Source: Psychromonas sp. MME1 (GTDB taxonomy: Bacteria; Pseudomonadota; Gammaproteobacteria; Enterobacterales; Psychromonadaceae). Taken from it: 64,000 nt of DNA. This document shows, one piece after another, positions 6,124 to 35,201 of this stretch. The notes below the pieces were generated by a model. The model worked only from the letters and a program-made list of their open reading frames with translations, ran no database searches and had not been told where the DNA came from. How positions within the stretch are numbered: position 1 is the first letter of the stretch; the number at the start of each line of letters is the position of its first letter. Made by a program: the position numbers and the translations under genes. The DNA is taken from positions 3,309,629 through 3,373,628 of the forward strand of contig NZ_CP160906.1 in NCBI RefSeq assembly GCF_041080865.1, given 5' to 3'.

Positions 6124-6220
6124 TTAGCAATGCTAATGGAAATAGTGCCTTCAGCTTTCGGCTCTCACGAGCTATTGAGCAGATTTAATAACTGAAAATT
6201 ATATTTTTCAAGGATTTAAA

Positions 6221-7630: not shown

Positions 7631-7639
7631 TTGCTAAAT

Positions 7640-7676: not shown

Positions 7677-7697
7677 CCTAGCTAATGGCTGATTTAT

Positions 7698-11545: not shown

Positions 11546-11791
11546 TTTGTATAACTAAAAACAATATGTGTAAGGCTGATTTTGTGTAATTAATGTAGAA
11601 AAAAACTAAAAAAATCTGCTAATATCCGCACTTAATTTATCTAAATAAATTTTTTTGCAAACAGAGCATCAACCAACATTTATAACGGAATATACATGAC
11701 GAAGCCGCAAGTTGGACTAACTACACTCTCTGTTCGCAATAAAAACAACCCCTTATCAGTTCACCGCTCACTAAGACTAAAAGATATGATA

Positions 11792-14443
11792 ATGAAAAAT
11801 ATAATGCGAAAGATAGGCTTGTCGATGCTGTTTTTTACGACAACCCTTTTTGCTCAAACCCCGACTGCAGCACAAATGGCACAATTTAAACAGTTGCCAA
11901 GAGCGCAGCAAGAACAACTTGCAAAGCAGTATGGTGTTGATTTAAGCGCGAGCGGAAGTAGCGAGGTGGCTGAAAAAAAGCCGTATATCCCTCCAACTAA
12001 AACAGTGGCAGAAAGAAATATAGAAAATGTTGATATAAAAGTTGACTACCAAAGTGGCAAGCAATTAAAACCTTTTGGTTATGATGTGTTAGCAGGGCAG
12101 GCAACTAATTCACCGATTGATGATATTCCCATTCCTAATGATTACATTATGGGGCCTGGCGATGAAATTAAAATAGAACTCTACGGTAAGGTGAATAATA
12201 CCTTTAATCTTAAAGTAACGCGTGAAGGTAAAGTCCATTTACCCGAATTAGGTCCTATTAATTTATCAGGCTTAACCTTTCAAGAAGCTCGTGAAGAGCT
12301 AACTAATAGCATTAATAATAAAATTATCGGTGTTGATAGCAGTATCACCATGGGCAGTTTGCGTTTAATGCAAGTCTATATTGTTGGCGAGAGTGCTCAA
12401 CCGGGCGCCTACAACGTTAACCCTATAACTACGGTGACGCAGGCGCTTGTTGCCTCTGGTGGCGTAAAAGTGACGGGCAGTTTGCGTAATATCCAACTAA
12501 AACGAAAAGGTCAAATTGTGACCACGTTAGATATGTACGACCTTATTTTAAAAGGTAATACAGCTAATGATGTGCGCTTGCAGGGTGGAGATACTTTATT
12601 TATACCCCCGCGAGAGAACACCGTTGTTGTTGACGGTGCAGTGATGCGTCCTGCAATTTACGAGTTAAAAAATAATACCTCGTTAAATGAGTTGATTGAG
12701 CTTGCAGGTGGCACGCAAATGGATGCCTTTTTGCAAAATGTTACCGTACGCCGTCTAACCACTGAGGGTGTTGAGGTTAAATCCGTTGACCTTAGCAATA
12801 AACAAAGCACTAAATTTAGTATAAAAAATGGCGATGTAGTGCAAGTAAGCCAAGTAAATAAAACGCTGACAAACGCAATAGCAGTGAGAGGCGAAGTTAT
12901 TCGCCAAGGTGTTTATCAGTTCGTTCCTGGTATGAAGGTGAATGATGTCATTACCTCTATTGCATCGGATTTAAAATTAACCACGGACCTTAACTATGCA
13001 TTAGTCGTGCGAGAAATTAACGCACAACATGATATTGAAGTGCTGCAATTTGATTTAGGTGAAGCGATTAAAACGCCACACTCTCGTGAAAACTTAACCC
13101 TGCAGAAACTCGATCAGATTTTTGTCTTTAGTAATAGTGTTAATAGTCAATTTTGGCGCGGTGAAACCGAAAAATCGGCATTATTATTAGAACAAGAAAG
13201 AAATAAAGAGCAACTGTCTCAAGCGGCTAAAGAAAAAATTCAACAAGATGGCATGCCTGAGAAAATGATTGATGATGTCACTGGTGCCGAAGTTGAAGTT
13301 TCTTCTAATCAAGATAGCAAGGCGATGGTTGGCAGCGAGTTAGCAAGCCAATCGGTTGAAAACCTTCGCGAATCGCAACTTGAACCTATTTTGACCCGTT
13401 TACGTTCTCAGGCATCATTGATTAATCCTATACAAGTTATCGAAATTGGTGGGGATGTAAAATACCCTGGCACTTACCCCTTAGTTAAAAATGGGCATGT
13501 TAAAGATGCGATTAAAGCCGCGGGGGGGTTATTAGAGTCTGCCTACTTAAATGAAGCTGAATTAACGCGTACCAGTTATGTTGAAGATGATTTGAAAATC
13601 AAGCAATATCGTCTTGATTTGCATCAATTAGATGCCGCAAATAGCAAGTCTAATTACCAATTAAGATCAAAAGATCGCCTTAACATACTCACCAAACCGG
13701 GCTGGAATGATGAATTAGTCGTGACCCTGCAAGGAGAGGTTCGTTTCCCTGGGGAGTACTCCTTCAAACGTGGAGAAACGATTAAGGATATAGTGCTACG
13801 AGCGGGTGGTTTGACTCGTTTTGCAAATGCGGAAGGGGCTGTTTTTGCCCGTGAACAGTTAAAAATTCGCGAAGCAAGGGAGATGAAATACCTAAAGGCG
13901 CAGATGCAACAGCAAATTTCAGCCATGACTCTACGTAAAAATAGTGTCACGGGGAGTTATGCATCATCTCCTCAGGATGCGCTTAATGTGGTTAATGAAT
14001 TAGAAACATTGCCAGCACTCGGGCGTATGGTGATTAATCTACCTGAAATACTCAATAACAATGAAAAATTGGATGTACAGCTAGCGAATGAGGATAAAAT
14101 TTATATCCCTGAGTTAGTCAAAGCTGTTTCAATTATTGGTGAAGTACAGTTTAAGTCAACGCATACCTTCGATGAAAATTTAACTCTTGATGATTACATT
14201 GATTTAGCAGGGGGCATGAAAAAACAAGCCGATAATGACCGAATTTATGTAATTCGCGCCAATGGCTCTGTGATGGTGCCAAAAAGCTCTTACTGGTTTA
14301 ACAATCAAAATCAGCCATTAAAGCCCGGTGATACTATCGTCGTTCCGATCGATGTTGATTACATGGATGGCTTAAGCGCAGTTGCAACGGCAACACAAAT
14401 TGTTTATCAATTGGGTGTTGCTTGGAGCGCAATTAATAATTAA
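11792..14443 (+). CDS. Polysaccharide export outer-membrane protein with SLBB repeats (Wza-like)
   Basis: From the ATG at 11792 this is an 883-residue protein with a signal peptide (MKNIMRKIGLSMLFFTTTLF, cleaved near AQ-TP). It has a Poly_export domain (YIMGPGDEIKIELYGKV) followed by several SLBB/soluble-ligand-binding-beta-grasp repeats (for example VVDGAVMRPAIYELKNNTS, VIEIGGDVKYPGTYPL, VTLQGEVRFPGEYSFKRGE, VSIIGEVQFKSTHTF). It is far longer than E. coli Wza (about 380 residues), as in the large SLBB proteins of marine bacteria. It should form or support an outer-membrane polysaccharide exit. An in-frame ATG at 11696 would put 32 charged residues before the signal peptide, so 11786 or 11792 is preferred. 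The next gene is wzz. Confidence 0.85.
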   Translation: MKNIMRKIGLSMLFFTTTLFAQTPTAAQMAQFKQLPRAQQEQLAKQYGVDLSASGSSEVAEKKPYIPPTKTVAERNIENVDIKVDYQSGKQLKPFGYDVLAGQATNSPIDDIPIPNDYIMGPGDEIKIELYGKVNNTFNLKVTREGKVHLPELGPINLSGLTFQEAREELTNSINNKIIGVDSSITMGSLRLMQVYIVGESAQPGAYNVNPITTVTQALVASGGVKVTGSLRNIQLKRKGQIVTTLDMYDLILKGNTANDVRLQGGDTLFIPPRENTVVVDGAVMRPAIYELKNNTSLNELIELAGGTQMDAFLQNVTVRRLTTEGVEVKSVDLSNKQSTKFSIKNGDVVQVSQVNKTLTNAIAVRGEVIRQGVYQFVPGMKVNDVITSIASDLKLTTDLNYALVVREINAQHDIEVLQFDLGEAIKTPHSRENLTLQKLDQIFVFSNSVNSQFWRGETEKSALLLEQERNKEQLSQAAKEKIQQDGMPEKMIDDVTGAEVEVSSNQDSKAMVGSELASQSVENLRESQLEPILTRLRSQASLINPIQVIEIGGDVKYPGTYPLVKNGHVKDAIKAAGGLLESAYLNEAELTRTSYVEDDLKIKQYRLDLHQLDAANSKSNYQLRSKDRLNILTKPGWNDELVVTLQGEVRFPGEYSFKRGETIKDIVLRAGGLTRFANAEGAVFAREQLKIREAREMKYLKAQMQQQISAMTLRKNSVTGSYASSPQDALNVVNELETLPALGRMVINLPEILNNNEKLDVQLANEDKIYIPELVKAVSIIGEVQFKSTHTFDENLTLDDYIDLAGGMKKQADNDRIYVIRANGSVMVPKSSYWFNNQNQPLKPGDTIVVPIDVDYMDGLSAVATATQIVYQLGVAWSAINN

Positions 14444-14520
14444 TCGCAATCACGCAAATAATTTTGTTTATAAAGATACAGGCATTGCTTAACTAAGTGA
14501 TGCCTGTCATAGGCTAATCA

Positions 14521-15492
14521 ATGAATCATAACTACCCTGAAAATATGCAACCTTTTATGGCTGCACAAGCTGATGATGAAATCGACCTGCGTGAATTGTT
14601 TCATGCACTATGGAAAGGCAAATGGATCATCATACTCTGTACCGCTGTGCTTGCCGTTGGCGGTGTTTTTTTTGCTTTATCGCAACCCAATACCTATAAA
14701 TCTGATGTGTTACTCGCTCCCACGCAGGGCAGTTCTGGCGGAGGTTTGTCAGGACAACTTGGTGGCTTAGCTGCATTAGCAGGAGTTAATATCGGTGGTG
14801 CACAAGCGGATGATCCTAAGGTTGAGGCATTAGCCGTTTTACAATCGCGTAAATTTATCGACGCTTTCATTGTTAAACATGACCTGTTAGTGCCCCTGAT
14901 GGCCAGTACAAAATGGATAGAGGATAGTAACACCCTGATTTTAGATGAAGAGCTATATGATGCCGCCACTAAGGAGTGGTTATTTGACCCAGAAGAAAAT
15001 GAAACGTTAAAACCGACCCTCTGGGATGCTAATAAAGCATTTAAGGAATTACTTGCAGTATCGGAAGACAAAGAAAGTGGTATGGTGACTATCAGCGTTA
15101 CGCACTTTTCTCCTTTTGTTGCACAGCAGTGGGCGACATTATTGGTTTCTGAGCTTAATGAGTGGATGAAACAGAACGAATTAGACAGATCCAGCAAAAA
15201 TCTTGGCTATTTGCAGTCTAAAATAGACGAAACATCTATTGCTGAATTGCGTACGGTATTTTATCAAATGGTAGAAGAGCAGATTAAAAAAAGAATGATT
15301 GCCGAAGTACAGGATGAATACGTTTTTAAAACCATTGACCCTGCCGTGGTTGCAGAGGAAAAAGCTGGACCTAAACGCGCCTTAATTTGTGTATTAGCAA
15401 CCCTGTTAGGTGGTATGTTAGGTGTCGCCATCGTACTCGTGCGGTTCGCCTTTAATAAAAAAGAGCCAACAGAGCTCACTACAACCGTATAG
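14521..15492 (+). CDS. Wzz/chain-length determinant protein
   Basis: A 323-residue inner-membrane protein. A cytoplasmic head EIDLRELFHALWKGKW precedes the first membrane segment (about residues 33-51). A long periplasmic domain of mixed helix follows, then the proline-bearing IDPAVVAEEKAGPKRA before the second membrane segment (about 286-308). This is the Wzz architecture, which sets O-antigen or polysaccharide length together with Wzy. There is no C-terminal tyrosine kinase domain, so it is not a full Wzc. It lies 77 bases after the SLBB export gene and is probably co-transcribed with it. Confidence 0.88.
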   Translation: MNHNYPENMQPFMAAQADDEIDLRELFHALWKGKWIIILCTAVLAVGGVFFALSQPNTYKSDVLLAPTQGSSGGGLSGQLGGLAALAGVNIGGAQADDPKVEALAVLQSRKFIDAFIVKHDLLVPLMASTKWIEDSNTLILDEELYDAATKEWLFDPEENETLKPTLWDANKAFKELLAVSEDKESGMVTISVTHFSPFVAQQWATLLVSELNEWMKQNELDRSSKNLGYLQSKIDETSIAELRTVFYQMVEEQIKKRMIAEVQDEYVFKTIDPAVVAEEKAGPKRALICVLATLLGGMLGVAIVLVRFAFNKKEPTELTTTV

Positions 15493-15700
15493 TCAAGCAA
15501 AGCTCAAATTAGCCTGCCAGAGTATTGTAATAATTAGGGGCGCAGGCTTTAGCCTGCTTGTTTTTGGTGGCCTAAAAACAGGCTGCGTAGAGCTTATGTT
15601 GGTTATGGGGCGCAGGCTTTAGCCTGCTTGATTTTGGTAGGCTAAAAACAGGCTGCGCAGAGCTTATGTTGTTATGAGGCGCAGGCTTTAGCCTGCATAT

Positions 15701-15761
15701 TTAGCACTGTCATTATTCATATTCATAAGCACCATAAAAGCGTAGTTCAGCATTATTTAGA
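15701..15761 (-). repeat. Duplicate of the RAYT gene 3' end, copy 1
   Basis: Read on the minus strand, this segment would encode LRFYGAYEYE and a stop, closely matching the last residues (QRFYGVYEDE, stop) of the transposase gene at 16041. The flanking GCCTGCATATTTAGCACTGT is also shared with the sequence after the real gene. It is a fragment, not a gene, and it sits inside the repeat cluster. Confidence 0.8.
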
Positions 15762-15858
15762 CCACCTGTTTTTTGGGTGGGCTAAAGCCCACGCCCCTTG
15801 TGAGCTAAAAACAGGATACGCAGAGCTTATGTTGTTATGGGGCGTAGGCTTTAGCCTA

Positions 15859-21522: not shown

Positions 21523-22026
21523 ATGTCAAGAATCAGTGATAAAGCATCTTTGTATAATACTGAAATGATATCCATTGGTGCTAATTCTAGGATTGATGAT
21601 TTTTGTCTTATTTCTGGAAATGTTACTATTGGTAGAAACGTTCATATAGCGGCATATTGTAATATTGCAGGTGGGGCTCCTGGTGTTAAGTTTGACGATT
21701 TTAGTGGGCTAGCATACGGTTGTCATGTTTTTTCTCAAAGTGACGACTACTCCGGAAAAACGCTTACAAATCCAACAGTCCCTGATAAGTACAAAAGTGA
21801 AACATATAAGTCAGTGACCATTGGGCGGCACGTAATTGTTGGAGCTCAAAGTATAATCCTGCCGGGGGCTAATTTAGCAGAGGGGTGTTCCGTTGGAGCA
21901 ATGAGTATGGTTACAAAGCCAACGAAAAGCTGGGGGATTTATTTCGGCATACCAGCTAAAAGGATTAAAGAACGTTCAAACGATTTACTGAAATTGGAAG
22001 AGGGGTACCTAAATGAAAACTGTTAA
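21523..22026 (+). CDS. Hexapeptide-repeat acetyltransferase, N-terminus split by a frameshift
   Basis: The 167-residue frame from the ATG at 21523 has left-handed beta-helix repeats (VTIGRNVHIAAYCNIAGG, VTIGRHVIVGAQSIILPG) and the Ser/Asp-rich loop FSQSDDYSGKTL, as in sugar N-acetyltransferases. A better-placed start at 21465, with TAGGA upstream, gives MAFLTEQELAALNFKSLGG and then a stop at 21537. That peptide is the usual N-terminus of this family, so the two parts belong to one gene separated by an extra base near 21528-21532 (AAGAATC where AAGATC would keep the frame). The shorter protein might still work. Between rfbA and a WecE-like gene, it probably N-acetylates dTDP-Fuc4N. It overlaps the next gene by 14 bases. 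Confidence 0.8.
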   Translation: MSRISDKASLYNTEMISIGANSRIDDFCLISGNVTIGRNVHIAAYCNIAGGAPGVKFDDFSGLAYGCHVFSQSDDYSGKTLTNPTVPDKYKSETYKSVTIGRHVIVGAQSIILPGANLAEGCSVGAMSMVTKPTKSWGIYFGIPAKRIKERSNDLLKLEEGYLNENC

Positions 22027-23146
22027 GTTTAGTGAACCTGCAGTTTTAGGTAGAGAACTTGGATACATTTCTGAAGCGTTAAATAGTAAGAAACTATGTG
22101 GAGACGGGCCCTTCACTAAGCGGTGTCAAGAATTTTTTGAGAAAAGATATGGTGTAAAGAAAGCATTGTTAACGACATCGTGCACTGATGCGCTAGAAAT
22201 GGCTGCAATCTTGCTCGATATTGAAGAGGGGGATGAGGTAATTGCTCCATCCTACACTTTTGTTTCTACAGTTAATGCGTTTGTTCTTCGTGGTGCAAAT
22301 ATCATGTTTGCAGATAGTGAAGAAACATCTCCTAATATTTCTGTGAGTGAAATTGAGCGTTTAATTTCTCCGAAAACTAAAGCGATCGTTGTTGTTCATT
22401 ATGCGGGTATGGCCTGTGATATGGATGCGATCATGGATCTAGCACAACGGCATGGTATTTCAGTCGTCGAGGATGCAGCGCAAGCGATAGAGGCTACCTA
22501 TAAGGGCCGCCAACTTGGTACAATTGGTGATTTTGGTACATTTTCTTTTCATGAAACTAAAAATATAGGTTGTGGGGAGGGGGGGGTATTATTTGTCAAT
22601 AATGAACGCTATATTCAACGGGCTGAAATAATTCGTGAAAAGGGCACGAACCGCGCATCATTCTTTCGTGGTGAGATAAATAAGTACGGTTGGGTAGATA
22701 AAGGTTCCTCGTTCCTACCTTCTGAGCTAAATGCTGCGTTTTTATGGGGGCAGTTAGAGAGCCTGGAAGAGATTCAATCAAAGAGAGTCGCTGTATGGGA
22801 GCGTTATTATAATAACCTTAACGGCAGATTGAAAAACTTTACATTAGCAAGTTTCGCATCAGAGCAGAGCAATAATGCACATATGTTTTTCTTAGTTGCA
22901 AAGATGCCAGAGTGTCGATGCGAGTTGCTTAAGTGCTTGAAGGAAAAGGGGGTTTTGGCTGTGTTTCATTATTTGTCACTTCATAAAAGTGAGTACTATC
23001 GAGCCAAGTATAATGGGCCAAAGTTGCCACAATCAGATAGGTATACTGATTGCCTAGTCCGATTGCCTTTGTTCTATTCTCTTAGTTTGGAGCAGGTTGA
23101 CTATATTTGTGATGTTATTCTTGGTATAGGGGGTGATTGTGAATAA
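22013..23146 (+). CDS. DegT/DnrJ/EryC1 transaminase, WecE/RffA-like (dTDP-4-keto-6-deoxyglucose aminotransferase)
   Basis: A 377-residue PLP enzyme. TSCTDALEMAAILLDIEEGD, PSYTFVSTVNAFVLRGA, VEDAAQAIEATYKGR and FSFHETKNIGCGEGG, with the internal-aldimine Lys in HETKN, closely follow E. coli WecE, as do EKGTNRASFFRG and VFHYLSLHKS. WecE makes dTDP-Fuc4N (4-amino-4,6-dideoxygalactose) from the RfbB product. Preceding acetyltransferase and following WecF-like genes support a Fuc4NAc module. Assignment to the family is firm; the exact C4 stereochemistry is inferred. Confidence 0.9.
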   Translation: MKTVKFSEPAVLGRELGYISEALNSKKLCGDGPFTKRCQEFFEKRYGVKKALLTTSCTDALEMAAILLDIEEGDEVIAPSYTFVSTVNAFVLRGANIMFADSEETSPNISVSEIERLISPKTKAIVVVHYAGMACDMDAIMDLAQRHGISVVEDAAQAIEATYKGRQLGTIGDFGTFSFHETKNIGCGEGGVLFVNNERYIQRAEIIREKGTNRASFFRGEINKYGWVDKGSSFLPSELNAAFLWGQLESLEEIQSKRVAVWERYYNNLNGRLKNFTLASFASEQSNNAHMFFLVAKMPECRCELLKCLKEKGVLAVFHYLSLHKSEYYRAKYNGPKLPQSDRYTDCLVRLPLFYSLSLEQVDYICDVILGIGGDCE

Positions 23147-24176
23147 AGTTGTTCACCTGTGTCCGGTAAATAAGTTTATGCCAGCCTTTATTGAATTGAT
23201 AAACAGTCGTTTATGTTGTGCTCACGAGTTTTTTGTTTATTCCAATGAGGAATACTCAGGAGATGCTGAGAATGTAACATCGCCATTTTATAGTGGTTTT
23301 TCATTGTCGAAGTTTTATACGATGGTTAGGTCTATGAATAGAGCTGACATAATCATTATTCATGGACTGTTTGATGTTAAAGTTATGTTTACTTTGGTGT
23401 TTATGCCGTGGCTGATCCGAAAGTCAAAGTGGATTGTTTGGGGTGGAGACTTATACGTATGGACGGGTAGATATACCTTTCGAGACAAGCTGTCTTCTGC
23501 ACTCAAAAAGATAATCGTTCCTAACCTAAACTCAATGATTACCTATGTAAATGGTGATTATGCATACGCAGTGTCGCAATATAGCTCAAAAGCTAAGTTT
23601 GAAGAATGCATTGTGTATCCGAGCAATTTTTTTCGCTATGGCTTCGTGGATAAAGCCGTAAATGAAAGTAACATAAATCAAGTCCTTTTAGGAAACTCAG
23701 CGGATCCCCAAAATAACCATTTGGAAGCATTAGAAAAACTAAAGTCGATTGACGATGGAATAATGGAACTAACGATACCACTTTCCTATGGTTGTAAAAA
23801 AAATGCGGTTATTGTAGCACAAAAAGCGTCAGAAATGTTTGGTGACAGGGTTAGGATTATTAGTGATTTTATGACTCTGGAAGAATATTCCTCTTTACTA
23901 GCATCAATTGATTTTGCTGTTTTTTGTCATGACCGTCAGCAAGCAATGGGGAATATCATTACGCTACTTGGAATGGGTAAAACAGTCGTTCTTAAAAGCG
24001 GTTTATCGCATTCGAACTTCTTGACCTCTAAAGGGCTTGTATACAAGGATATTGCTTCATTATCCTTAGATTCAATCTCGAGAGAAGAAGGTATTCGCAA
24101 CTCAGAGATCGTGTCTGCATATTTTAATGAAAGTAACTGTGTAATGCAGCTTAATAGAATATTTGGCGATAACTAG
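23133..24176 (+). CDS. WecF/RffT-like Fuc4NAc transferase (GT56 family)
   Basis: A 347-residue protein with GTG start, overlapping the transaminase gene by 14 bases. The segments WIVWGGDLYVWTG, QVLLGNSADPQNNHLEAL, LTIPLSYGC and FAVFCHDRQQAMGNIITLL align with the WecF pattern (WHIWGADLY, VGNSGDRSNDH, PMGYP, FARQQGIGTL). WecF transfers Fuc4NAc from its dTDP donor to a lipid-linked acceptor at the cytoplasmic side of the inner membrane. Its presence completes a dTDP-Fuc4NAc synthesis and transfer module within this operon. The acceptor sugar is unknown. Confidence 0.85.
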   Translation: MIVNKVVHLCPVNKFMPAFIELINSRLCCAHEFFVYSNEEYSGDAENVTSPFYSGFSLSKFYTMVRSMNRADIIIIHGLFDVKVMFTLVFMPWLIRKSKWIVWGGDLYVWTGRYTFRDKLSSALKKIIVPNLNSMITYVNGDYAYAVSQYSSKAKFEECIVYPSNFFRYGFVDKAVNESNINQVLLGNSADPQNNHLEALEKLKSIDDGIMELTIPLSYGCKKNAVIVAQKASEMFGDRVRIISDFMTLEEYSSLLASIDFAVFCHDRQQAMGNIITLLGMGKTVVLKSGLSHSNFLTSKGLVYKDIASLSLDSISREEGIRNSEIVSAYFNESNCVMQLNRIFGDN

Positions 24177-24178: not shown

Positions 24179-25579
24179 ATGGATAGAAAGAGTGTATTGT
24201 ATTTTGCTTTAGGTCCAATAGGAAGTGCAGCGATAAGTCTTATTACGCTGCCATTAATAACGTGGTATTTTTCCATTGAAGACGTAGGTAGGTTTTCACT
24301 ATTGCAAACCTTCACTGGTTTTGCAACATTGGTGTTCTGTCTTGGCTTTGATCAAGCATTTGTTCGCTCTTTTTACACAAGTAAATTACCTCGGTCTTTA
24401 TTCCTGAGTGCGTACGTACCACCTTTAATCTTGTATGCTAGTATTGTCACGGTAGCGTTGTATTTCTCTGATGCTCTGGACAGCTTACTCTTTGGGGAAA
24501 GTGGGACGCCTGAGCTGCTACAGGTGCTGGTTGTTTGCTGTGGATTATCATTTTCTGTAAGGTTTCTCTCTCTTATTCTCAGAGTAAGCGAAAGAGGGTT
24601 AGCATATTCTATTTCCCAGATGTCACCTAAGTTGTTGTTTTTGTTGTTGGTTTTTATTTCGGTTTACTATGTAAATGGCAACTTTATGGCATTGGCTATA
24701 TCATATATGGCCTCATTGCTTGTAGTGTTTATTGTATTACTTTTTAATAATCGAGATTTTTTGTTTTGTTCGTCAGGTCCCTATAGTTACCTTTTGACAA
24801 AAAGTATGTTTGCTTTTGGTTCCCCCTTAATTATATCTAGTGTCGCGTTTTGGGGGCTGACAGTTTCAGATAAAATATTGATCGGCAGGCTATCTAGTTT
24901 AACCGAGCTGGGAGTGTACTCGGTTGCTGTAAGTTTTGCTGGTGCAGCTATCGTACTTCAAAGTATATTTTCTACAATTTGGGCTCCCCTGATTTATCGC
25001 TGGATTGATAAAGATAATATGGCTAAAGATGAAGTAGCTACACATATTAATATGATGGCTGATTTAATGCTGTTGATTATTGTGCTTGGTGTTTCTTTAG
25101 CAGGTAGTTTGTCTTTCGTTTTGGATTACATTCTTCCTGAGCAATATAGTCAAGCAAAGTACGTAATGTTGTCGTGTATGTGTTACCCTTTGTTTTATAC
25201 ACTTTCGGAAGTGACTGTTGTCGGGTTGCATGTAAAAAAACGAACAATAGTTTCGATGCTGATTACTCTGGTATCTTTTATTGTGAACTTATTTGGTAAC
25301 ATTATTCTAATTCCAGAATTTGGTGCAAAAGGTGCGGCATTGAGTACGGCAGTTTCATTTTGGTTATTTCTATTTTTGAGAACGGAATTTAGTTCTAGAT
25401 ATTACAGCAAGCTGCAAAGAATAAAATTGTACTTTATTACGCTTTTAGTGGTATGCCTTACTACGGTTAATTTGTTTTATGGTTCCGCGCAGGTAGCTTG
25501 TTTTTCAATTTTATGGTTAGCCATTGGCGTAGTTTATTTATCGCTAAATTATAAAACACTTGCTTATCTTAGACGATAA
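24179..25579 (+). CDS. wzx: Wzx-type polysaccharide flippase (oligosaccharide translocase)
   Basis: A 466-residue, very hydrophobic protein with about 12 predicted membrane segments. The opening YFALGPIGSAAISLITLPLI and later SDKILIGRLSSLTELGVYSV are characteristic of Wzx/MATE-like polysaccharide biosynthesis proteins. It should flip the undecaprenyl-linked repeat unit to the periplasm. It starts two bases after the WecF-like stop. The gene symbol is by function; substrate specificity cannot be inferred. Confidence 0.88.
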   Translation: MDRKSVLYFALGPIGSAAISLITLPLITWYFSIEDVGRFSLLQTFTGFATLVFCLGFDQAFVRSFYTSKLPRSLFLSAYVPPLILYASIVTVALYFSDALDSLLFGESGTPELLQVLVVCCGLSFSVRFLSLILRVSERGLAYSISQMSPKLLFLLLVFISVYYVNGNFMALAISYMASLLVVFIVLLFNNRDFLFCSSGPYSYLLTKSMFAFGSPLIISSVAFWGLTVSDKILIGRLSSLTELGVYSVAVSFAGAAIVLQSIFSTIWAPLIYRWIDKDNMAKDEVATHINMMADLMLLIIVLGVSLAGSLSFVLDYILPEQYSQAKYVMLSCMCYPLFYTLSEVTVVGLHVKKRTIVSMLITLVSFIVNLFGNIILIPEFGAKGAALSTAVSFWLFLFLRTEFSSRYYSKLQRIKLYFITLLVVCLTTVNLFYGSAQVACFSILWLAIGVVYLSLNYKTLAYLRR

Positions 25580-25593: not shown

Positions 25594-27207
25594 ATGATCG
25601 ATTTTAAAATTTTAGATTGCACCCTTCGTGATGGAGGTTATTACAATGACTGGGACTTCAACGGTGAAGTGCTAACGAATTACTTAAATGCTATCGCGGA
25701 ATCTGGAATAGAATATGTCGAGCTAGGTTTACGTAACTTCCCTAAAGGTGGCTTTCTTGGGGCATTTGCCTATACGACAGATCGTTATATTAATACGATA
25801 GACTTGCCTGATGGGCCAACCTACGGGGTAATGGTCGATGCGAAGACGATTTTAAATAGTGATATGTCAGTAGAGCTGGCAATTGATAGTTTGTTCGCTG
25901 ATGCTGCTGATAGTAAAGTCAGCTTGGTTCGCGTGGCTGCTCATTTTGGCGAAGTCGAAGCATCTGGGCCCATTGTTAAGCGTTTAAAAGAAAAGGGGTA
26001 CATTGTAGGTTACAACCTGATGCAAGCTGGTGGCAAACCGACTGAGGTGATTGCAGAAAAAGCGCGAATTGCCGCGAGCTGGAATGTTCTCGATGTATTG
26101 TATTTTGCTGACTCGTTGGGCAACATGGACGCAGACGAAGTACGTAGAATCGTCAAAACCCTGCGAACTGAATGGCATGGTGAACTAGGTATTCATACTC
26201 ATAACAACATGGCTAAAGCTCTGGATAATTGCTTAGCTGCGAAGCATGCCGGCGTGACTTGGTTGGATGTGACAATTACTGGTATGGGGCGTGGCGCAGG
26301 TAATGCGCAGACAGAGAACTTGCTTGCGGTTGTTAGTCAAGAAACAGGACGCTATCAGCCTAAGTCTATTTATGAACTAGCTATCCGTGATTTCGAACCA
26401 ATGCAGAAAAAGTATGGTTGGGGTAGCAATCTGCTTTACTTTATTGGTGCGCAACACAATGTGCATCCAACCTATGTACAGAATTTGTTATCAGACACCC
26501 ATTACGGGCCTGATGAAATTGTAGGTGTCGTAAAGTATCTTAGCTATTTAAACAACAGCGAGTCATATAGTGATGAGACGTATGCAGCATCACTAATGTT
26601 TTCGGCCGCTTCTTCAGAGATATCTGGTAGTAATGCTTTAGCTGGTTCAGCCAAAGGTAAAAACGTTGTTATTTTGGCCAGCGGCCCGTCTCTATTTCGT
26701 TACAAGAAGGATATCGAGACATATTTGTCTGCATTGTCGGAAGACAGTCTCGTCATTGCAATTAACACTCTTATTGATTTTGAACAGTACATTGATTACT
26801 ATTGCTTATCTGGTAATTCAAAGATGTTATCGCAATCAGGAGATTACAGTTCTCTGGGTAAGCCTATTATTCTGCCTGCTCATCGCTTCTCAACTGAGGA
26901 ATTGGCTGGAATCAAAGCTAACGGTCAAATATTTGATTACGGTGTCGAAGTTAAGTCCGATACCTTCCTCGCCGGAGAGTCTAACTGCATACTACCTTAT
27001 GACATCACCGCTGGCTATTTGTTCGCACTTTGCGAAAGCATGCAAGCTACGCAAGTTAAACTCATCGGTTTCGATGGTTACAGCAGTGGTGATTCGCGAC
27101 AATCTGAGATGATTGAGATTTTTTCGAAGGTTAACAGTGCTCATTATACAGCATTAACACCAACAACGTATCCAATTTCACAAGGCTCTATTTATGGTGA
27201 AATTTAG
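25594..27207 (+). CDS. DRE-TIM aldolase fused to a Maf/DUF115-like domain
   Basis: A 537-residue two-domain protein. Residues about 1-300 form a DRE-TIM metallolyase (HMGL-like) domain: LDCTLRDGGYYNDW at the N-terminus, metal-binding GIHTHNNMAKALDN and the GMGRGAGNAQTENLL loop, resembling 4-hydroxy-2-oxovalerate aldolases. After a linker, residues about 350-537 show NVVILASGPSLFRYKKDIE and VKLIGFDGYSSGD, the G-P-S and F-D-G signatures of DUF115/MptE-like Rossmann domains found in Maf flagellin glycosyltransferases. It is followed, with overlaps, by a HAD phosphatase and a KdsB-like CMP-sugar synthetase. I infer aldol condensation of pyruvate with an aldehyde sugar to give a 3-deoxy-2-ulosonic acid. 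The role of the second domain (transferase or phosphokinase-like) is open. Confidence 0.78.
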   Translation: MIDFKILDCTLRDGGYYNDWDFNGEVLTNYLNAIAESGIEYVELGLRNFPKGGFLGAFAYTTDRYINTIDLPDGPTYGVMVDAKTILNSDMSVELAIDSLFADAADSKVSLVRVAAHFGEVEASGPIVKRLKEKGYIVGYNLMQAGGKPTEVIAEKARIAASWNVLDVLYFADSLGNMDADEVRRIVKTLRTEWHGELGIHTHNNMAKALDNCLAAKHAGVTWLDVTITGMGRGAGNAQTENLLAVVSQETGRYQPKSIYELAIRDFEPMQKKYGWGSNLLYFIGAQHNVHPTYVQNLLSDTHYGPDEIVGVVKYLSYLNNSESYSDETYAASLMFSAASSEISGSNALAGSAKGKNVVILASGPSLFRYKKDIETYLSALSEDSLVIAINTLIDFEQYIDYYCLSGNSKMLSQSGDYSSLGKPIILPAHRFSTEELAGIKANGQIFDYGVEVKSDTFLAGESNCILPYDITAGYLFALCESMQATQVKLIGFDGYSSGDSRQSEMIEIFSKVNSAHYTALTPTTYPISQGSIYGEI

Positions 27208-27847
27208 CCAATATGATGTCATTGTTTTTGACTGTGATGGGGTTATTCTTGATTCGAATAACCTCAAAATTGACGCCATGCGAGTGGCGCTAGAGAATTT
27301 AGCTTACCCTCAATCTGAAGTTGATGCTGCAGTAGGCTATTTCGCAGTCAATTTCGGCAAAAGCCGATTTCATCATATTGCATACTTTGTTGATCATATA
27401 CTCTCTGGCATTTACGACAGAGAGGCAGCCTATGATGCTTTGCTTTCCGATTACTCTAAAGCTTGCAAACAGTTATACATGACTGCTGAAATGACGGAGA
27501 ACTTTAACTTAGTATTAGAGAATGTTAGTGCAGCTAAGCATGTTGCCAGCGGATCAGAGCAGGAAGAGTTGCGCCAAGTTTTCGAAGAACGCGGCTTAGC
27601 AAGACATTTTGGTTATATTCTTGGCTCTCCAACAGCCAAATCTGAAAACGTCGCACAAATTATTTCTGAATACAAAGAAAAAAAAATACTGATGGTTGGT
27701 GATGCGAAGTCAGATTTCGATGCGGCCAGAGTAAATAGTATTGATTTCGCATTTTATGCGCCCTACTCCAATGTGCAAGGGCAAATGTTAAACCACGCCT
27801 CAATGTACGGGTTTCCAGTCATACACAGCTTTAAAGAGGTACTCTAA
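27194..27847 (+). CDS. HAD-superfamily phosphatase
   Basis: A 217-residue HAD hydrolase with motif I FDCDGVILDSN (residues about 12-22), a helical C1-type cap, motif II in KHVASGS and motif IV MVGDAKSDFDAA. It overlaps the aldolase gene by 14 bases and its TAA overlaps the start of the KdsB-like gene. In ulosonate pathways a phosphatase acts before CMP activation (KdsC or NeuB/NeuA-linked steps). This protein has a different cap from KdsC but could play that part. The substrate is inferred from context only. Confidence 0.82.
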   Translation: MVKFSQYDVIVFDCDGVILDSNNLKIDAMRVALENLAYPQSEVDAAVGYFAVNFGKSRFHHIAYFVDHILSGIYDREAAYDALLSDYSKACKQLYMTAEMTENFNLVLENVSAAKHVASGSEQEELRQVFEERGLARHFGYILGSPTAKSENVAQIISEYKEKKILMVGDAKSDFDAARVNSIDFAFYAPYSNVQGQMLNHASMYGFPVIHSFKEVL

Positions 27848-28584
27848 TGAATAAAGATAACTACGCAGTTATCATTCCGGCTCGTTTCAAATCTAGCCGT
27901 TTTCCAGGGAAGCCATTGGTCGATATCTGTGGTAAACCAATGATACAGCATGTATGGGAGCGTTGTGTTAGTGCTGTAGGACTAGCTAAAGTTTATGTAG
28001 CCACTGACGACCATCGAATCTCAGATGCAGCAATGAGTTTTGGCGCTCAAGTTGTCATGACCAGTGATAACTGCTTGACAGGCACCGATCGATTGGCTGA
28101 AGCGAATCATACATTGGATTTGGATTTTGTGATTAATGTTCAGGGGGATGAACCGTTGATCAATCCTGATGATATTCGCATGGTACGAGACCGCTTTTTG
28201 CAAACGGGTAATATTACCAATGCGATGTGCCGCATTCATAGCAAGGAAGAGTTCTTTAGCTTGACTGTGCCTAAGGTGGTTACATCTAAATCAGGAAAAC
28301 TGCTTTACATGAGTCGAGGAGGGGTGCCGTTGAATAAAGCAGGCGAGTTCAAAGAGGGCTGGAAACAGGTATGTATTTATGCCTTCTCTCGTGAGCAGTT
28401 GAACTTCTTTGCCAGCAATGCAAAGAAAACACCGCTGGAACAGCATGAAGATATTGAGATCCTGCGTTTCTTAGAGAATGATTATCAGATAGATATGGTG
28501 CAAGTTGAGTCTGGTTCTATAGCCGTGGATGTGCCAACAGACTTAGATGTCGTTTTACAATTGATGCGAAATGAATCTAAATAG
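27847..28584 (+). CDS. KdsB-like CMP-ulosonate (3-deoxy-manno-octulosonate) cytidylyltransferase
   Basis: A 245-residue nucleotidyltransferase with IIPARFKSSRFPGKPL, YVATDDHRI, NVQGDEPLI and a C-terminal HEDIEILRFLEN segment, as in KdsB. KdsB uses CTP to activate Kdo for lipid A core synthesis. A copy inside a surface polysaccharide operon next to an aldolase and a phosphatase is probably a paralogue for a Kdo-like or other ulosonic acid in the repeat unit, though it could be the only kdsB; the rest of the genome would decide. Confidence 0.88.
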   Translation: MNKDNYAVIIPARFKSSRFPGKPLVDICGKPMIQHVWERCVSAVGLAKVYVATDDHRISDAAMSFGAQVVMTSDNCLTGTDRLAEANHTLDLDFVINVQGDEPLINPDDIRMVRDRFLQTGNITNAMCRIHSKEEFFSLTVPKVVTSKSGKLLYMSRGGVPLNKAGEFKEGWKQVCIYAFSREQLNFFASNAKKTPLEQHEDIEILRFLENDYQIDMVQVESGSIAVDVPTDLDVVLQLMRNESK

Positions 28585-29602
28585 CAGAGTGAGAAGATAT
28601 TCTTTAGTATATCGACTTTACTTTATCTTGATTAGTATAGCTTTATCTTTAATATACTCTCAGAGATCATTGTATAACGATAGAAATGATACTTTAGCCT
28701 ATTTTAAACAGTTTTCATGTGAATTTGTTGCTAATCCGAATTGCTATCTTTTTGCTTCTGAATCAATAGCTGTGTTTTTCAATTTTTTTGTCGAAGCAAG
28801 TGCTAAAGTGTTGTCAGGGCTACCGCTCGACGCTCTACTTTCTTACAAGTTGTTTCTCTTTCTTTTTGCACTACTAGTAACGTTAAGCGCAGTTGCATTT
28901 TCTGTATGTCATGCACGTAATTCTATATTTGTCTTTATGTTGATTTTTCTTGATCCAAGATTTTTTGAATTATCAACTAATACATTAAAGCAAGGCTTGG
29001 CTTTTATTGCTATATTAATTTCTTTTGAACTTGCAATGAGAGGTAGTAAATATTCATTACTAGTAAAATTAGTGTCTTCTTTTTCTCATGTCTCGGGTGC
29101 AGTAGCCTTTTGTCTTGTTAGAAAGAAAATTAGCTTTCTTTCTATTTTTTGCATTATATTGTTTCTTGTTGTTTTTGAATTTATCGGCGGGCTGTCCTTT
29201 TTAGCAAAGTATTTAGACTATGGTAAGTTGCACTATTATTTAGCTCAGTCTGAAGGTGAGATTTATAGCTTTACTAGTGTTTTTTCAATGGTTTATATTT
29301 TTGTTATGGTGGCGGCTATTCCACTTTACCTAAAAACAAATGATGTCAAGTTTTTGTCATCATTTAACTTTGCTTTTTTTTGTTTTGTAGCTGCTTTAAT
29401 AACTTATAAAATTGGTATTGGATATCGTTTTACATTCTACATGGCACCTTTTATTTCTCTTCTTGTTGACCGCTTAATGTGGAATGTTAAATCTCTATAT
29501 GGGAGTGGCTATTACTACTTTTTTGTTTTTATTGTGCTGGTTGTTTTTGGTTCACGTTTTTTGGGTAATTACAAATTTATAATGGGACATATAGCGGGTT
29601 AA
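28571..29602 (+). CDS. wzy: Wzy-type O-antigen/polysaccharide polymerase (EpsG-like)
   Basis: A 343-residue protein with roughly ten membrane segments and little else. RSLYNDRNDTLAYFKQF near the N-terminus, STNTLKQGLAFIAILISFEL and a following SFSHVSGAVAF resemble the EpsG/Wzy group (D-x-x-Y, R/KQG-x-A and H-x-S). It should join repeat units in the periplasm, with Wzz limiting the length. It overlaps the KdsB-like gene by 14 bases. Its base composition is AT-rich, as usual for wzy. Confidence 0.75.
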   Translation: MNLNSRVRRYSLVYRLYFILISIALSLIYSQRSLYNDRNDTLAYFKQFSCEFVANPNCYLFASESIAVFFNFFVEASAKVLSGLPLDALLSYKLFLFLFALLVTLSAVAFSVCHARNSIFVFMLIFLDPRFFELSTNTLKQGLAFIAILISFELAMRGSKYSLLVKLVSSFSHVSGAVAFCLVRKKISFLSIFCIILFLVVFEFIGGLSFLAKYLDYGKLHYYLAQSEGEIYSFTSVFSMVYIFVMVAAIPLYLKTNDVKFLSSFNFAFFCFVAALITYKIGIGYRFTFYMAPFISLLVDRLMWNVKSLYGSGYYYFFVFIVLVVFGSRFLGNYKFIMGHIAG

Positions 29603-30505: not shown

Positions 30506-31919
30506 GTGGAATATTTATATTATACTGTTTCACCTGAAGGTGATCTTATTCTAGTTGATAGTAATGGTGGTGCACATAATGCAGATTATTCCTCCTTTGC
30601 ACACCAGCAATTTGTTAATACTGTCGGGAATAATTACTCTAGTAGTCTGAATGCTTTAGGTGTCAGTGATTATTCGAATGAGATATTTTTACAATATTTT
30701 GTTCGCCAACAAGAGTGGAACAATGTTGCTAAAAAACATGTAAAACGACAGGCTGCTAAGGGCAAGAGCTTAAATGAGCGGTTGTGGAATGATTTATTAG
30801 TCCGGTCACCAAGATTAAATAAACCATTTAGTATGGGCATGTTTTATACAAAGCTGTTGGTGGCTGCACTAGCAATTTGGTTATTAGTTGTAGCGCGCAA
30901 GCTCAAATGCAAGTCTGATGTGCTAGCCCCTAACGCAAAATTATGTGTTGTAAGGTCCAAGGCCAGCTTATCTAAACTGCGTGCCGTAAAAGAGGAGCTT
31001 GGACTGACGATCATAAGTGAGGACATAGTATATAAAACGGACCTTATGCCATCAATGTTGTCGTACCTATCATATGGTGCTGTACTTAAAGCATTGCCTA
31101 TTCTGATATTAGCCACTATTAAAGATGGAAAAGCAATTAATCGTGAGCTTGGCGTGTTATTTGGGGATGACTTACGGTTAGCGATACTAAATACTTACCC
31201 TGCTAGAATTGTCCTTAAGTGCTGGTATCAGTATGCCCTCGGTGGAATTGTTGATAAGTCCAATCTAGGTGCTCTTTACACTGGCAATAAAGAAGAATCG
31301 CTTTGCAATGGTAGAACAAAAAATTGCTAACCGACAAGCTATAGAGTTGGTGTGTGTTCCTCATGGTTTAGAGTATAGCTTCTTGTTTCCAGGCGGGGTG
31401 GCGGGTAATAAGTTTTATTGTACATCACTGAATGCATTAAATAAATTCTCGGAAATTTATCCTCATGTAAAGTCTGTTTTCAGTAATGAACTGCAGGAAA
31501 AACTCTATTCGTTGGGTGGATTAGTTAATCTTAATGAGCCTAAACGAATAGTTTTTTTTACCGAGTCGCGTGATGTAGATGTTAACCGTAAAATTATCGA
31601 AGACCTGAAAAATGCAGGGTTATCATTTTCACTAAAGTTACACCCTAAAGATGATGAAACTAATTATGCCTGTTTTCCAGATATTGATATCGAGGAAGAC
31701 TATTCTAGAGCAATTACGAGTGTTATCTGTATAGCTCGAAAATCGACAGTGCTTATTGAGGCATTATTTAATCAATCTTTACCCATTGCTTATATTAGAG
31801 ATTCAAAAGATACATATTATGTCACTTCGGTTTTTCCATCATTAAATGATGCGTCAATTGTAAAGTGCAATAATTATTTTGAATTATTAGATTTCATAAA
31901 GAATAATGCGAGGAAATAA
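30506..31919 (+). pseudogene. GT-B-like glycosyltransferase gene interrupted by a single-base frameshift
   Basis: A GTG at 30506 opens a 274-codon frame that ends at 31330. The following 216-codon frame (31269-31919) continues the protein: in its frame NRFAMVEQKIANRQAIELVC carries on directly from YTGNK in the first. One extra base around 31290-31296 (AAAGAAGAATCGC) explains the break. The C-terminal half has VCVPHGLEYSF, FSLKLHPKDDE and ICIARKSTVLIEAL, like GT-B enzymes with an HP motif (Kdo, sialyl and polysialyl transferases). I infer a possible ulosonate transferase. Joined, it would be about 470 residues. Whether the frameshift is real or an assembly error is unresolved. Confidence 0.75.
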
Positions 31920-32953
31920 TGTTTTCAGAGAAAGTACTACTTATTACCGGTGGAACAGGATCTTTTGGTAATGCGGTTTTGAATCGCTTTTTAGAAACAG
32001 ATGTTAAAGAAATACGTATTTTTTCCCGTGATGAGAAAAAACAAGATGATATGCGCAAGAAATATAAATCGGATAAATTGAAGTTTTATATCGGTGATGT
32101 CCGTGATTATCAAAGCGTGTCTAATGCTATTCGTGGTGTTGATTATATTTATCATGCTGCAGCATTAAAGCAGGTTCCATCTTGTGAGTTTTATCCGTTA
32201 GAAGCGGTTAAAACCAACGTGTTGGGCACAGAAAACGTACTTGAGGCCGCTATTCAACACGGTGTTGAAAGAGTTGTTTGTTTAAGTACAGACAAAGCTG
32301 TTTACCCCATTAATGCGATGGGGATCTCTAAGGCAATGATGGAAAAAGTGATTGTTGCAAAATCTCGTAATGTGCCCAAAGGCATGACGATCTGTACCAC
32401 TCGCTACGGTAATGTGATGGCTTCACGCGGCAGTGTTATCCCTCTTTTCTGTCGTCAAATTATTGAAGGTAAATCGTTAACGGTAACTGATCCCAACATG
32501 ACCCGTTTTATGATGACTTTAGACGATGCTGTAGACTTGGTTCTACATGCATTTGAATACGGCGATAACGGTGATATTTTTGTCCAAAAAGCGCCAGGTG
32601 CGACCATCGATGTGCTGACCAAAGCTATCTTTAACATTATGGATAAGCCTAATCATGAAGTGAATGTGATTGGTACACGCCATGGTGAGAAGTTGTATGA
32701 AGCACTTTGTAGTCGTGAAGAAATGTTTGTCGCTGAAGATCAAGGCGGCTATTATCGCATTCCTGCTGACAATCGTGATTTGAACTATGCGCAGTATATG
32801 GAAGAAGGCGAGAAAGACCTTTCTGTCGTTGAAGATTATAACTCGCATAATACCGAGCGTTTAGATGTCGCTGGAATGGAAGCATTACTGCTTAAGTTAG
32901 ATTTTATGCGCGAGATTAAAGCTGGCAACTTAAATGTACCAGAGGGCGTATAG
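31919..32953 (+). CDS. fnlA: UDP-GlcNAc 4,6-dehydratase/5-epimerase, FnlA/WbjB/CapE-like
   Basis: A 344-residue SDR enzyme with TGGTGSFGNAVL near residue 11, FSRDEKKQDDMRKKY, HAAALKQVPSCEF and STDKAVYPINAMGISKAMME, the catalytic set of FlaA1/WbjB dehydratases. The C-terminal GTRHGEKLYEAL is also typical. FnlA starts UDP-L-FucNAc synthesis from UDP-GlcNAc. fnlB- and fnlC-like genes follow directly. It shares one base with the preceding stop (TAATG). Confidence 0.93.
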   Translation: MFSEKVLLITGGTGSFGNAVLNRFLETDVKEIRIFSRDEKKQDDMRKKYKSDKLKFYIGDVRDYQSVSNAIRGVDYIYHAAALKQVPSCEFYPLEAVKTNVLGTENVLEAAIQHGVERVVCLSTDKAVYPINAMGISKAMMEKVIVAKSRNVPKGMTICTTRYGNVMASRGSVIPLFCRQIIEGKSLTVTDPNMTRFMMTLDDAVDLVLHAFEYGDNGDIFVQKAPGATIDVLTKAIFNIMDKPNHEVNVIGTRHGEKLYEALCSREEMFVAEDQGGYYRIPADNRDLNYAQYMEEGEKDLSVVEDYNSHNTERLDVAGMEALLLKLDFMREIKAGNLNVPEGV

Positions 32954-32954: not shown

Positions 32955-34057
32955 ATGAATATTGTCGTTACGGGGGCAAATGGTTTTATCGGTAAAAACC
33001 TCTGCACCATGCTCGCTGAACAAGGCTATACCGATTTAATTAAAGTTGACATTGAAACTTCTCGTGATGAGCTCGCTGGCTATTTGCAGTCTGCTGACTT
33101 TGTGTATCATCTTGCTGGTATTAACGGCCAAAAGATGACTCTGAGTTTCAAGAAGGTAATGCGCATCTAACAACGTTTATTGTTGATGAATTGCGTAAAG
33201 CAGGCAAGCGTACACCGATAATGGTGAGCTCTTCGATTCAAGCAGAACACGACAATCCCTATGGCACGAGTAAGGCTCAAGCTGAACAAGCTTTAGTTGA
33301 ATATAGCTCTGAAACTGCGGCTGATTATTATATTTACCGCTTTCCAAATGTATTTGGTAAATGGTGCCGACCAAACTATAACTCTTTTGTTGCTACCTTT
33401 TGTCACAACATCGTAAACGATATTGAAATAACGATAGATAACCCTGAAGCCCCTGTTACCTTGGTTTACATAGATGATGTTTGTGCAGAGTTAGTTTCTT
33501 TACTATCGAGTAAGAAAGAGACAGGTTTAAATTTTGTTAAGCCTGAATACCCGACTACTGTTGGCGATGTTGCGAAGCAGTTACGCGCATTCAAAGCTAG
33601 CAGAGAAAACTTAGTGACTGAAAATGTCGGTACTGGGTTAACCCGTACACTTTATTCTACTTACCTAAGTTATTTTTCGCCTTCACAGTTCAGTTATACC
33701 GTACCAAGCTATGGTGATGAACGTGGTGTTTTCTGTGAAATGCTTAAAACAAAGGAATCGGGGCAATTTTCTTTTTTTACTGCTCATCCTGGCATCACTC
33801 GTGGTGGCCATTATCACCATTCTAAGAATGAGAAGTTTTTGGTTATCAAAGGTAAGGCTCTGTTTAAATTTGAACAAATCATTACTGGCGAGCGTTATGA
33901 ATTAGTCGTTGATGCTATTCGTCCCGAAATTGTTGAGACGGTGCCTGGTTGGTCTCACGATGTCACGAATGTGGGCTGCGATGAATTAGTTGTAATGCTG
34001 TGGGCAAATGAGATTTTTGACCGAGAAGCCCCCGATACGATTGCCAAGCCACTTTAA
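32955..34057 (+). pseudogene. fnlB: FnlB/WbjC/CapF-like reductase, broken by a one-base deletion
   Basis: From ATG 32955 the frame reads MNIVVTGANGFIGKNLC to HLAGINGQK, then runs to a stop at 33168. The rest (33191-34057, containing YGTSKAQAEQAL and the cupin-like end GITRGGHYHHSKNEKFLVI) is in another frame. Adding one A to the run at 33130-33133 restores QKDDSEFQEGNAHLTTF and a single protein of about 367 residues, the normal size of this bifunctional reductase with SDR and cupin domains. It acts after FnlA toward UDP-L-FucNAc. A homopolymer indel is a common sequencing error, so the gene may be intact. Confidence 0.85.
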
Positions 34058-34071: not shown

Positions 34072-35201
34072 ATGAAAAAATTAAAAGTTATGTCTGTGGT
34101 CGGTACTCGACCTGAAATTATTCGCCTGTCACGCGTTTTAGCTAAGCTAGATGAGCACTGTGAACATATTTTAGTCCACACTGGCCAAAATTATGACTTC
34201 GAGCTTAATGAAGTTTTCTTTAATGACTTGGGTGTGCGTAAGCCTGACTACTTTCTTAGTGCGGCAGGTAAAAATGCAGCGGAAACGATTGGGCAAGTCA
34301 TCATTAAAGTTGACCAGGTGCTCGAAGAAGTAGAGCCTGATGCCATGTTAGTGCTAGGCGATACCAACTCGTGCATTTCAGCTTTACCGGCTAAACGTCG
34401 TAAAGTACCTATCTTTCATATGGAAGCAGGTAACCGTTGTTTTGACCAACGTGTTCCAGAAGAGACAAATCGCCGTATAGTGGATCATACTTCAGATATA
34501 AACCTTACCTATAGCAGCATTGCTCGCGATTACTTGCTTGCCGAAGGTTTGCCTGCTGATCGTGTTATAAAAACAGGCAGCCCGATGTTTGAAGTGCTGA
34601 ATCACTATATGCCGCAGATTGATGCCTCTGATGTATTAACCCGATTGGGTCTCGAAAAAGGTCAGTTTTTTGTTGTGAGTGCCCATCGTGAAGAGAATGT
34701 CGACTCACCTAAGCAACTAGCAAAGTTAGCTGAGACCTTGAATACGGTCGCTGAGCATTATGGTCTGCCTGTTATTGTCTCAACACACCCTGAACGCGTA
34801 ATCGAATTGAAGCGCAAGGTTTGCAGTTCCATCCGAATGTTCAATTACTGAAACCGCTGGGATTCCATGATTATAATCACCTGCAAAAGAGTGCAAAGGC
34901 AGCCCTTTCAGACAGCGGCACGATTAATGAAGAATCTTCAATTATGAATTTCCCTGCGCTTAATTTGCGTGAAGCCCACGAGCGACCAGAAGGTATGGAA
35001 GAAGCATCCGTTATGATGGTTGGCTTAGGCGTTGAGCGGGTGATGCAAGGTTTACAGATTTTGGAGTCACAGCCATCAGGTGATGAGCGACTGCTTCGAC
35101 CAGTTTACGATTACAGCATGCCTAATGTATCTGATAAGGTTGTCCGGATACTTCATTCGTATACTGACTATGTTAAACGTGTTGTTTGGAAGGAATACTA
35201 A
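34072..35201 (+). pseudogene. fnlC: FnlC/WbjD/CapG-like UDP-N-acetyl sugar 2-epimerase, broken by a one-base deletion
   Basis: The first 259 codons (VVGTRPEIIRLSRVL, HTGQNYDFELNEVFF, VLGDTNSC, HMEAGNRCFDQRVPEETNRR, SAHREENVD) are a WecB-type epimerase. The frame is lost after STHPE near 34791 and resumes in the frame containing HPNVQLLKPLGFHDY (from 34821). One missing base between CCCT and GAACG at 34791/34792 would give STHPRTRNRIEAQGLQFHPN and a protein of about 376 residues. FnlC performs the last step to UDP-L-FucNAc. A sequencing error or a true mutation cannot be told apart here. Confidence 0.85.

Follow-up and report, generated by a model that had tools for sequence, protein, structure and literature searches.

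How a bacterial polysaccharide cluster may obtain a sugar acid activated with cytidine monophosphate (CMP) when no synthase of the usual kind is encoded nearby is the question raised by a locus of Psychromonas sp. MME1. CMP-activated ulosonic acids are thought to be built from phosphoenolpyruvate (PEP) by KdsA- or NeuB-type synthases. We analyzed a stretch of 64,000 nucleotides (contig NZ_CP160906.1 of assembly GCF_041080865.1, positions 3,309,629 to 3,373,628 of the forward strand; here referred to as the window), in which three overlapping genes, here named the trio, encode an aldolase, a phosphatase and a cytidylyltransferase. Judged from sequence comparisons, the trio is likely to constitute a complete route of its own to a CMP-activated 2-keto-3-deoxy sugar acid, with an aldolase in place of the PEP-dependent synthase. 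The basis computed for this reading comprises the identity of the genes, their co-conservation, one gene fusion, the rarity of synthases nearby, their absence from some genomes and an altered KdsB pocket. The features of the trio are:

25594..27207, + strand: two-domain aldolase of 537 aa (PF00682, 81.1 bits, cut-off 29)
26632..27204, + strand: C-terminal MptE-like (PF01973-related) domain of the aldolase (predicted local distance difference test, pLDDT, of the model 94.7)
27194..27847, + strand: HAD-superfamily phosphatase (PF13419, 36.1 bits, cut-off 23.8; PF00702 also over its cut-off)
27847..28584, + strand: predicted KdsB-like CMP-ulosonate synthetase (PF02348, 146.4 bits, cut-off 22.6)

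The open reading frames (ORFs) of the trio all lie on the + strand and overlap by 14 nt (aldolase/HAD) and 1 nt (HAD/KdsB-like). Together with the profile matches over the cut-offs, this bears out the initial annotation, which had named a DRE-TIM aldolase, a HAD phosphatase and a KdsB-like cytidylyltransferase. The third protein additionally scored 305.2 bits with NF009905 (cut-off 255) and passed the kdsB equivalog cut-off of TIGR00466 (164.4 vs 155.2 bits). The trio HAD had 16 NCBIfam matches, none of them to a KdsC model. The trio is placed between a Wzx-like flippase and an EpsG/Wzy-like polymerase within a Wzx/Wzy-type polysaccharide cluster, and the polymerase ORF at 28571 overlaps the end of the KdsB-like ORF.

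In the order of steps that we infer, the DRE-TIM domain would condense pyruvate, as a metal-bound enolate, with a phosphorylated aldose, and the HAD phosphatase would then remove the phosphate, which would make the condensation practically irreversible. The KdsB-like enzyme would transfer CMP from CTP to the 2-OH of the acid, and a glycosyltransferase of the cluster, for which an enzyme with an HP motif is the best candidate, would put the residue into the Wzx/Wzy-assembled polysaccharide.

The aldolase consists of a DRE-TIM (HMGL-like) barrel (residues ~1-300) and a second domain (residues ~350-537) that had gone unnoticed in the initial annotation. The model of the full protein had a pLDDT of 93.9. 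Both the profile score over the cut-off and the residues of the metal site place the protein in the DRE-TIM metallolyase superfamily (PF00682). The nearest solved structure of the barrel (residues 1-300) was PDB 3dxi (E 2.3e-46 by sequence, Foldseek rank 1), the N-terminal domain of BVU_2661 of Bacteroides vulgatus, which is labelled merely 'putative aldolase'. DmpG-type pyruvate aldolases were the next matches, and homocitrate, isopropylmalate and HMG-CoA enzymes were found among the more distant ones. In an alignment of 53 relatives, selected from the 80 two-domain loci described below, R12, D13, Y16, R113, H201, H203, R233 and N237 were invariant (53/53). We take D13, H201 and H203 to be the metal ligands.

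The fold and the HxH and GMGxGxGN motifs are common to the trio aldolase and the 4-hydroxy-2-oxovalerate aldolases DmpG and BphI. However, the trio aldolase stayed below the TIGR03217 equivalog cut-off (99.8 vs 286 bits), carries the extra MptE-like domain and stands in a biosynthetic context, and a Pfam scan of 20 cluster proteins showed no acylating aldehyde dehydrogenase, the partner of DmpG/BphI. Furthermore, DmpG has Ala in the pairwise alignment where the trio aldolase has Arg233. This arginine and the HAD partner would fit a negatively charged acceptor, for instance an aldose phosphate. N-acetylneuraminate lyase (NanA) also joins pyruvate to an aldose, but it is a class I Schiff-base enzyme of another family and normally degradative; no NanA-type aldolase was seen among the same 20 proteins, in which no search aimed at NanA was made.

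The C-terminal domain appears related to MptE-like proteins. Of 29 members of the family, 17 matched PF01973 at E ≤1 (best 1.9e-6), and the window copy gave E 0.055 and 13.7 bits (cut-off 34.6). By Foldseek, SteA (9hmz) and an archaeal HPPK (8sd5) were weak matches (E ~0.003-0.02, none at ≤0.001). We set aside that the domain is the glycosyltransferase, as it co-occurs with different types of downstream transferases; for the same reason it is probably part of the aldolase. That it may serve product binding or product feedback is a guess.

To describe conservation we compared 88 loci, namely the window, the best 80 of at least 581 relatives from an alignment-based scan of GTDB genomes (at least 591 stretches) and seven others (two Leisingera plasmid loci and five from a separate search). 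In total, 14 of these loci were shorter than 15 kb. A two-domain aldolase, called by the C-terminal-domain profile at E ≤1e-4, was present in 80 of the 88; matches in Bacteroidota were often partial and the gene of locus L083 was broken. Within 5 kb and on the same strand, 76 of the 80 two-domain loci carried a cytidylyltransferase, which was KdsB-type in 49 and NeuA-type in 27, and 61/80 had a HAD of the window type as well. KdsA was found in a single locus (1/88, L091) and NeuB in 11/88. The neighbourhood search that the initial annotation had proposed, for the trio without kdsA or neuB, hence came out in its favour. Outside the 88 remained L025 (a 4.5 kb contig with a NeuA-type gene), the single-domain loci L020, L021, L028-L033 and L035, and Leisingera H3. 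In a class-wide draw the aldolase was matched at E ≤1e-20 in 14/369 genomes, seven of them at full length (own genome included).

The most telling of the eight loci without a two-domain call was L106, where the aldolase barrel is joined directly to a KdsB-like enzyme in a single ORF of 592 aa (1118-2896). Two Streptomyces loci of the same eight, L098 and L103, carried the aldolase and a HAD and no cytidylyltransferase, which suggests that the pairing of aldolase and phosphatase occurs in other pathways, too. The MptE-like domain was not recognised in the L106 fusion.

As a control we applied the same profiles to the nine single-domain loci named above. None of them (0/9) had a KdsB- or NeuA-type enzyme; a window-type HAD was present in L033 (Streptomyces), and L031 gave two weak HAD matches. 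A degradative role of the trio aldolase was set aside, since it is these single-domain relatives, without such an enzyme, that occur in other contexts. On a Paraburkholderia symbiotic plasmid (L020:6261-11809) the single-domain relative lies between genes for a short-chain dehydrogenase/reductase, a phosphoserine-aminotransferase-like protein and a HAD. This may be a further pathway in which an aldolase of this type is paired with a HAD.

The initial annotation had further stated that no PEP-dependent synthase is present here. This holds for the window, in which neither KdsA/DAHP synthase (PF00793) nor NeuB (PF03102) was matched, but not for the genome, which has both KdsA and NeuB elsewhere. 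Outside the window four PF00793 matches were found, one of KdsA size (290 aa) and three DAHP-synthase-like by eye, as well as one NeuB match and two additional ones to CTP_transf_3. The NeuB gene and the nearer CTP_transf_3 match are ~1.36 Mb away, and the genome's own kdsB at contig position 445484 is ~0.66 Mb away if the contig is circular. At 1949865-1951320 of contig 1 (L003, L120) the NeuB gene is accompanied by its own cytidylyltransferase and, by eye, by PseC- and PseG-like neighbours. This NeuB locus is probably of pseudaminic type and separate from the trio.

A whole-genome search for the synthases was made in 49 of 50 genomes chosen from the 80 loci (L085 was left out). KdsA scored over the cut-off in 44/49 and NeuB in 30/49, the latter including L061 and L091 by matches below 35 bits. 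These counts agree with a rival explanation in which the ulosonate comes from housekeeping KdsA or NeuB, the aldolase provides or modifies a precursor and the trio cytidylyltransferase is a second CMP-synthetase; that the Psychromonas genome has both synthases, and that a second, HpaI-type aldolase was found in 7/88 loci, fits this as well. Three observations speak otherwise. Eight of the 18 genomes with a NeuA-type trio (L047, L048, L055, L060, L066, L067, L070, L115) had no NeuB match. Each such absence is soft, because the completeness of the genomes was not given; the eight together are less so. In the Gram-positive Rossellomorea aquimaris (L061) the sole matches were 127 bits for KdsA (cut-off 314) and 32 bits for NeuB, both in the same ORF, and by these scores its genome shows neither synthase. 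Locus L091 (Bacillus sp. ISL-41), also Gram-positive, keeps a seemingly complete kdsB-kdsA-kdsD-kdsC-like block (5096-8221; kdsD and kdsC by eye), which adjoins a distinct trio that has a KdsB-like gene of its own. Since the trio enzymes additionally fell mostly apart from housekeeping KdsB and NeuB-locus NeuA in the trees given below, we regard the precursor role as unlikely.

The pocket of the cytidylyltransferase gives an indication of the product. Table 2 of a modelling paper (PMC12058783) has Arg157, His185, Glu214 and Gln215 among the KdsB active-site residues, and the numbering in that table fits H. influenzae KdsB. The window enzyme has equivalents of Arg157 and Glu214, but Gln174 at the position of His185 and Ile205 at that of Gln215. 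Arg157 and Glu214 were kept in all 50 trio KdsB-type enzymes, while His185/Gln215 were replaced by Gln/Ile in 44/50, compared to His/Gln in 22/22 other best KdsB matches. The six exceptions were L040, L041, L042, L045, L064 and L087. Given the Gln/Ile pair, the product of the trio is probably not 3-deoxy-D-manno-octulosonic acid (Kdo). The kdsB of the L091 block carries Phe/Ser at these positions, so that His/Gln is no strict mark of Kdo. A PEP-independent synthesis of ordinary Kdo would be favoured by the score over the TIGR00466 kdsB cut-off and by the two residues kept throughout; against the changed pair, and with a NeuA-type enzyme replacing KdsB in 27/76 loci, we consider it highly improbable.

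The KdsB tree was built from the 50 trio enzymes, 23 others (the best KdsB match of 22/26 genomes and of the Psychromonas genome) and three further sequences. One of the 23 (L151, Prochlorococcus) turned out to be the trio copy itself (243/243 residues). The other 22, housekeeping enzymes, grouped together, apart from the rest (split support 0.984). Beyond a second split (0.968) lay 45 trio enzymes, and those of L040, L041, L042, L045 and L087 were placed between. Three of the latter belong to variant loci (L040, L041 and L042, near 11400-15800). These encode an HpaI-type aldolase, an LdpA-like iron-sulphur protein (Pfam, L041) and, by eye, a different HAD-like protein; in their KdsB, Ala stands at the position of His185, and Tyr or His at that of Gln215. 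The NeuA tree contained 27 trio enzymes, namely those of the NeuA-type loci without L089, whose nearest same-strand gene is 4.9 kb away, and with L096, which has a broken aldolase ORF. Here, 23/27 trio enzymes and one NeuB-locus enzyme shared one side of a split (0.999), and the trio enzymes of L047, L052, L057 and L112 were placed elsewhere. A PntC-like phosphonate pathway was set aside as well, as the window enzyme is KdsB-like and PntC, according to PMC6697681, is LicC-like and occurs with ppm; no search for ppm was made.

Compared to the KdsA-KdsC-KdsB pathway of Kdo, the trio shares the formation of a C-C bond, a HAD phosphatase and CMP transfer by a KdsB relative, but has the DRE-TIM aldolase instead of the PEP-dependent KdsA, and the altered pocket. 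The Pfam scan of the 20 cluster proteins showed no arabinose-5-phosphate isomerase. With the NeuB/NeuA pathways to nonulosonates (sialic, legionaminic and pseudaminic acid) it has in common the CMP activation, the NeuA-type enzyme of 27 loci and the sialyltransferase-family genes that adjoin some of them, but NeuB was not found in 77/88 loci, nor in the eight NeuA-type genomes mentioned.

Several further points weigh against the proposed route, as do the synthase counts given above. The 80 scan loci were the best by similarity and no random draw, and no assay of any member of the family was found. A window-type HAD was missing in 19/80 two-domain loci, and 4/80 had no same-strand cytidylyltransferase within 5 kb; in one of these the contig ends (L075), and the others belong to SAR11 (L080, L081, L097). 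KdsA was present in 3/4 Bacillales genomes with the aldolase, two of them additional genomes with the aldolase found among 397. The HpaI-type enzymes are a family of pyruvate aldolases, and the DRE-TIM enzyme may do something else in the seven loci that carry one; these are the main unexplained point, and the division of labour there must differ. Finally, the trio aldolase has Tyr in 53/53 relatives at what we take to be the position of the general-base, catalytic His of the 4-hydroxy-2-oxovalerate aldolases. In the three SAR11 loci a second aldolase-like ORF was located upstream of the two-domain aldolase.

The tyrosine, and the presence of homocitrate, isopropylmalate and HMG-CoA enzymes among the distant matches of a diverse superfamily, could also mean that the DRE-TIM enzyme performs another reaction of that superfamily, an acyl-CoA Claisen or a decarboxylating condensation, and that the CMP-activated acid is no 3-deoxy-ulosonate. 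Yet among named relatives the 4-hydroxy-2-oxovalerate (pyruvate) aldolases come nearest in both profile and fold, both ulosonate families have contributed cytidylyltransferases, and some of the neighbouring transferases belong to sialyltransferase families. Such a reaction is therefore quite improbable, and we retain the condensation of pyruvate as the most fitting first step.

The genes surrounding the trio were assigned as follows:

22013..23146, + strand: WecE-like dTDP-4-amino-sugar transaminase (NF008687, 533.7 bits, cut-off 375)
23133..24176, + strand: GT56 (WecF-like) transferase (PF07429, 91.5 bits, cut-off 25)
24179..25579, + strand: Wzx-like flippase (PF01943)
28571..29602, + strand: EpsG/Wzy-like polymerase directly 3' of the trio (PF14897, 31.3 bits, cut-off 30.1)
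30506..31330, + strand: N-terminal part of the HP-motif glycosyltransferase, in another frame (weak tblastn match of the L063 protein, E 1.6e-5)
31269..31919, + strand: C-terminal part of the HP-motif glycosyltransferase, candidate user of the CMP-sugar (37-40% identity to the L061/L063 genes)
31919..32953, + strand: FnlA-like dehydratase (TIGR04130, 617.8 bits, below the cut-off of 730)

The cluster also encodes RmlB- and RmlA-like and FnlB/C-like proteins, a WbpM-like dehydratase and a sugar-phosphate transferase; for the Rml, FnlB/C and WbpM names, a call by eye was added to the Pfam matches.

The initial annotation had placed an HP-motif transferase gene at 30506. In this assembly the gene is split over two overlapping ORFs with the HP motif in the second (31269-31919), which had no Pfam match of its own and no tblastn match in plasmids. 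In L061 and L063 the homologues are single ORFs that adjoin the trio, and the presence of the same family beside these trios makes the enzyme a plausible user of the product. Relatives matched this gene (30506-31919) as well as the FnlB-like (32955-34057) and FnlC-like (34072-35201) genes each in two frames, which points either to errors in the assembly or to decay of the cluster in this strain.

Ten neighbour proteins of trios were scanned for families. GT29 sialyltransferase-family genes over the cut-off were located directly 3' of the trio in L066 and L110 and clustered with genes in L111 and L113. The neighbour in L049 was of a polysialyltransferase family (25.2 bits, cut-off 23.3), that in L062 was MptE-like over the cut-off and those in L054 and L079 below it; no family over the cut-off was found for the neighbours in L063, L061 and L026. 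Given its GT29 neighbour and the missing NeuB match, Pseudomonas flexibilis (L066) combines a sialyltransferase-family gene and a NeuA-type enzyme in a genome where NeuB was not found.

The window and the L061 locus (1-21602) have the transaminase, GT56 and Fnl-like genes in common, as well as RmlAB-like genes by eye, and the Gram-positive and the Psychromonas strain may thus make related repeat units; a transfer between phyla is possible. By BLASTN the L061 aldolase gene had no match in E. coli genomes; ~5% of the trio was matched in 313/5426, with the 20 listed of these 313 all in kdsB. Phage records gave one weak catabolic match.

The aldolase family was found in Gammaproteobacteria, Bacteroidota, SAR11, Prochlorococcus and Bacillota, together with either of the two kinds of cytidylyltransferases. 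A description of the trio was not found in the open-licence literature; most subscription papers lie outside it, and 'undescribed' is therefore provisional. As the product we considered 3-deoxy-D-threo-hexulosonic acid, which is reported for the lipopolysaccharide of some Vibrio, and set it aside; it stays a guess. Whether the reading extends to the whole family, so that a widespread metal-dependent pyruvate aldolase with a fused MptE-like domain opens a third biosynthetic way to CMP-ulosonates next to those of KdsA and NeuB, leading to acids that are neither Kdo nor one of the known nonulosonates, we regard as evenly balanced. If true, it would explain why bacteria that lack NeuB have cytidylyltransferases and sialyltransferase-like enzymes, and the reversible enzyme would be useful for the synthesis of 2-keto-3-deoxy acids. 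Acidic sugars that have gone unrecognised would also be expected on many bacteria, including marine ones.

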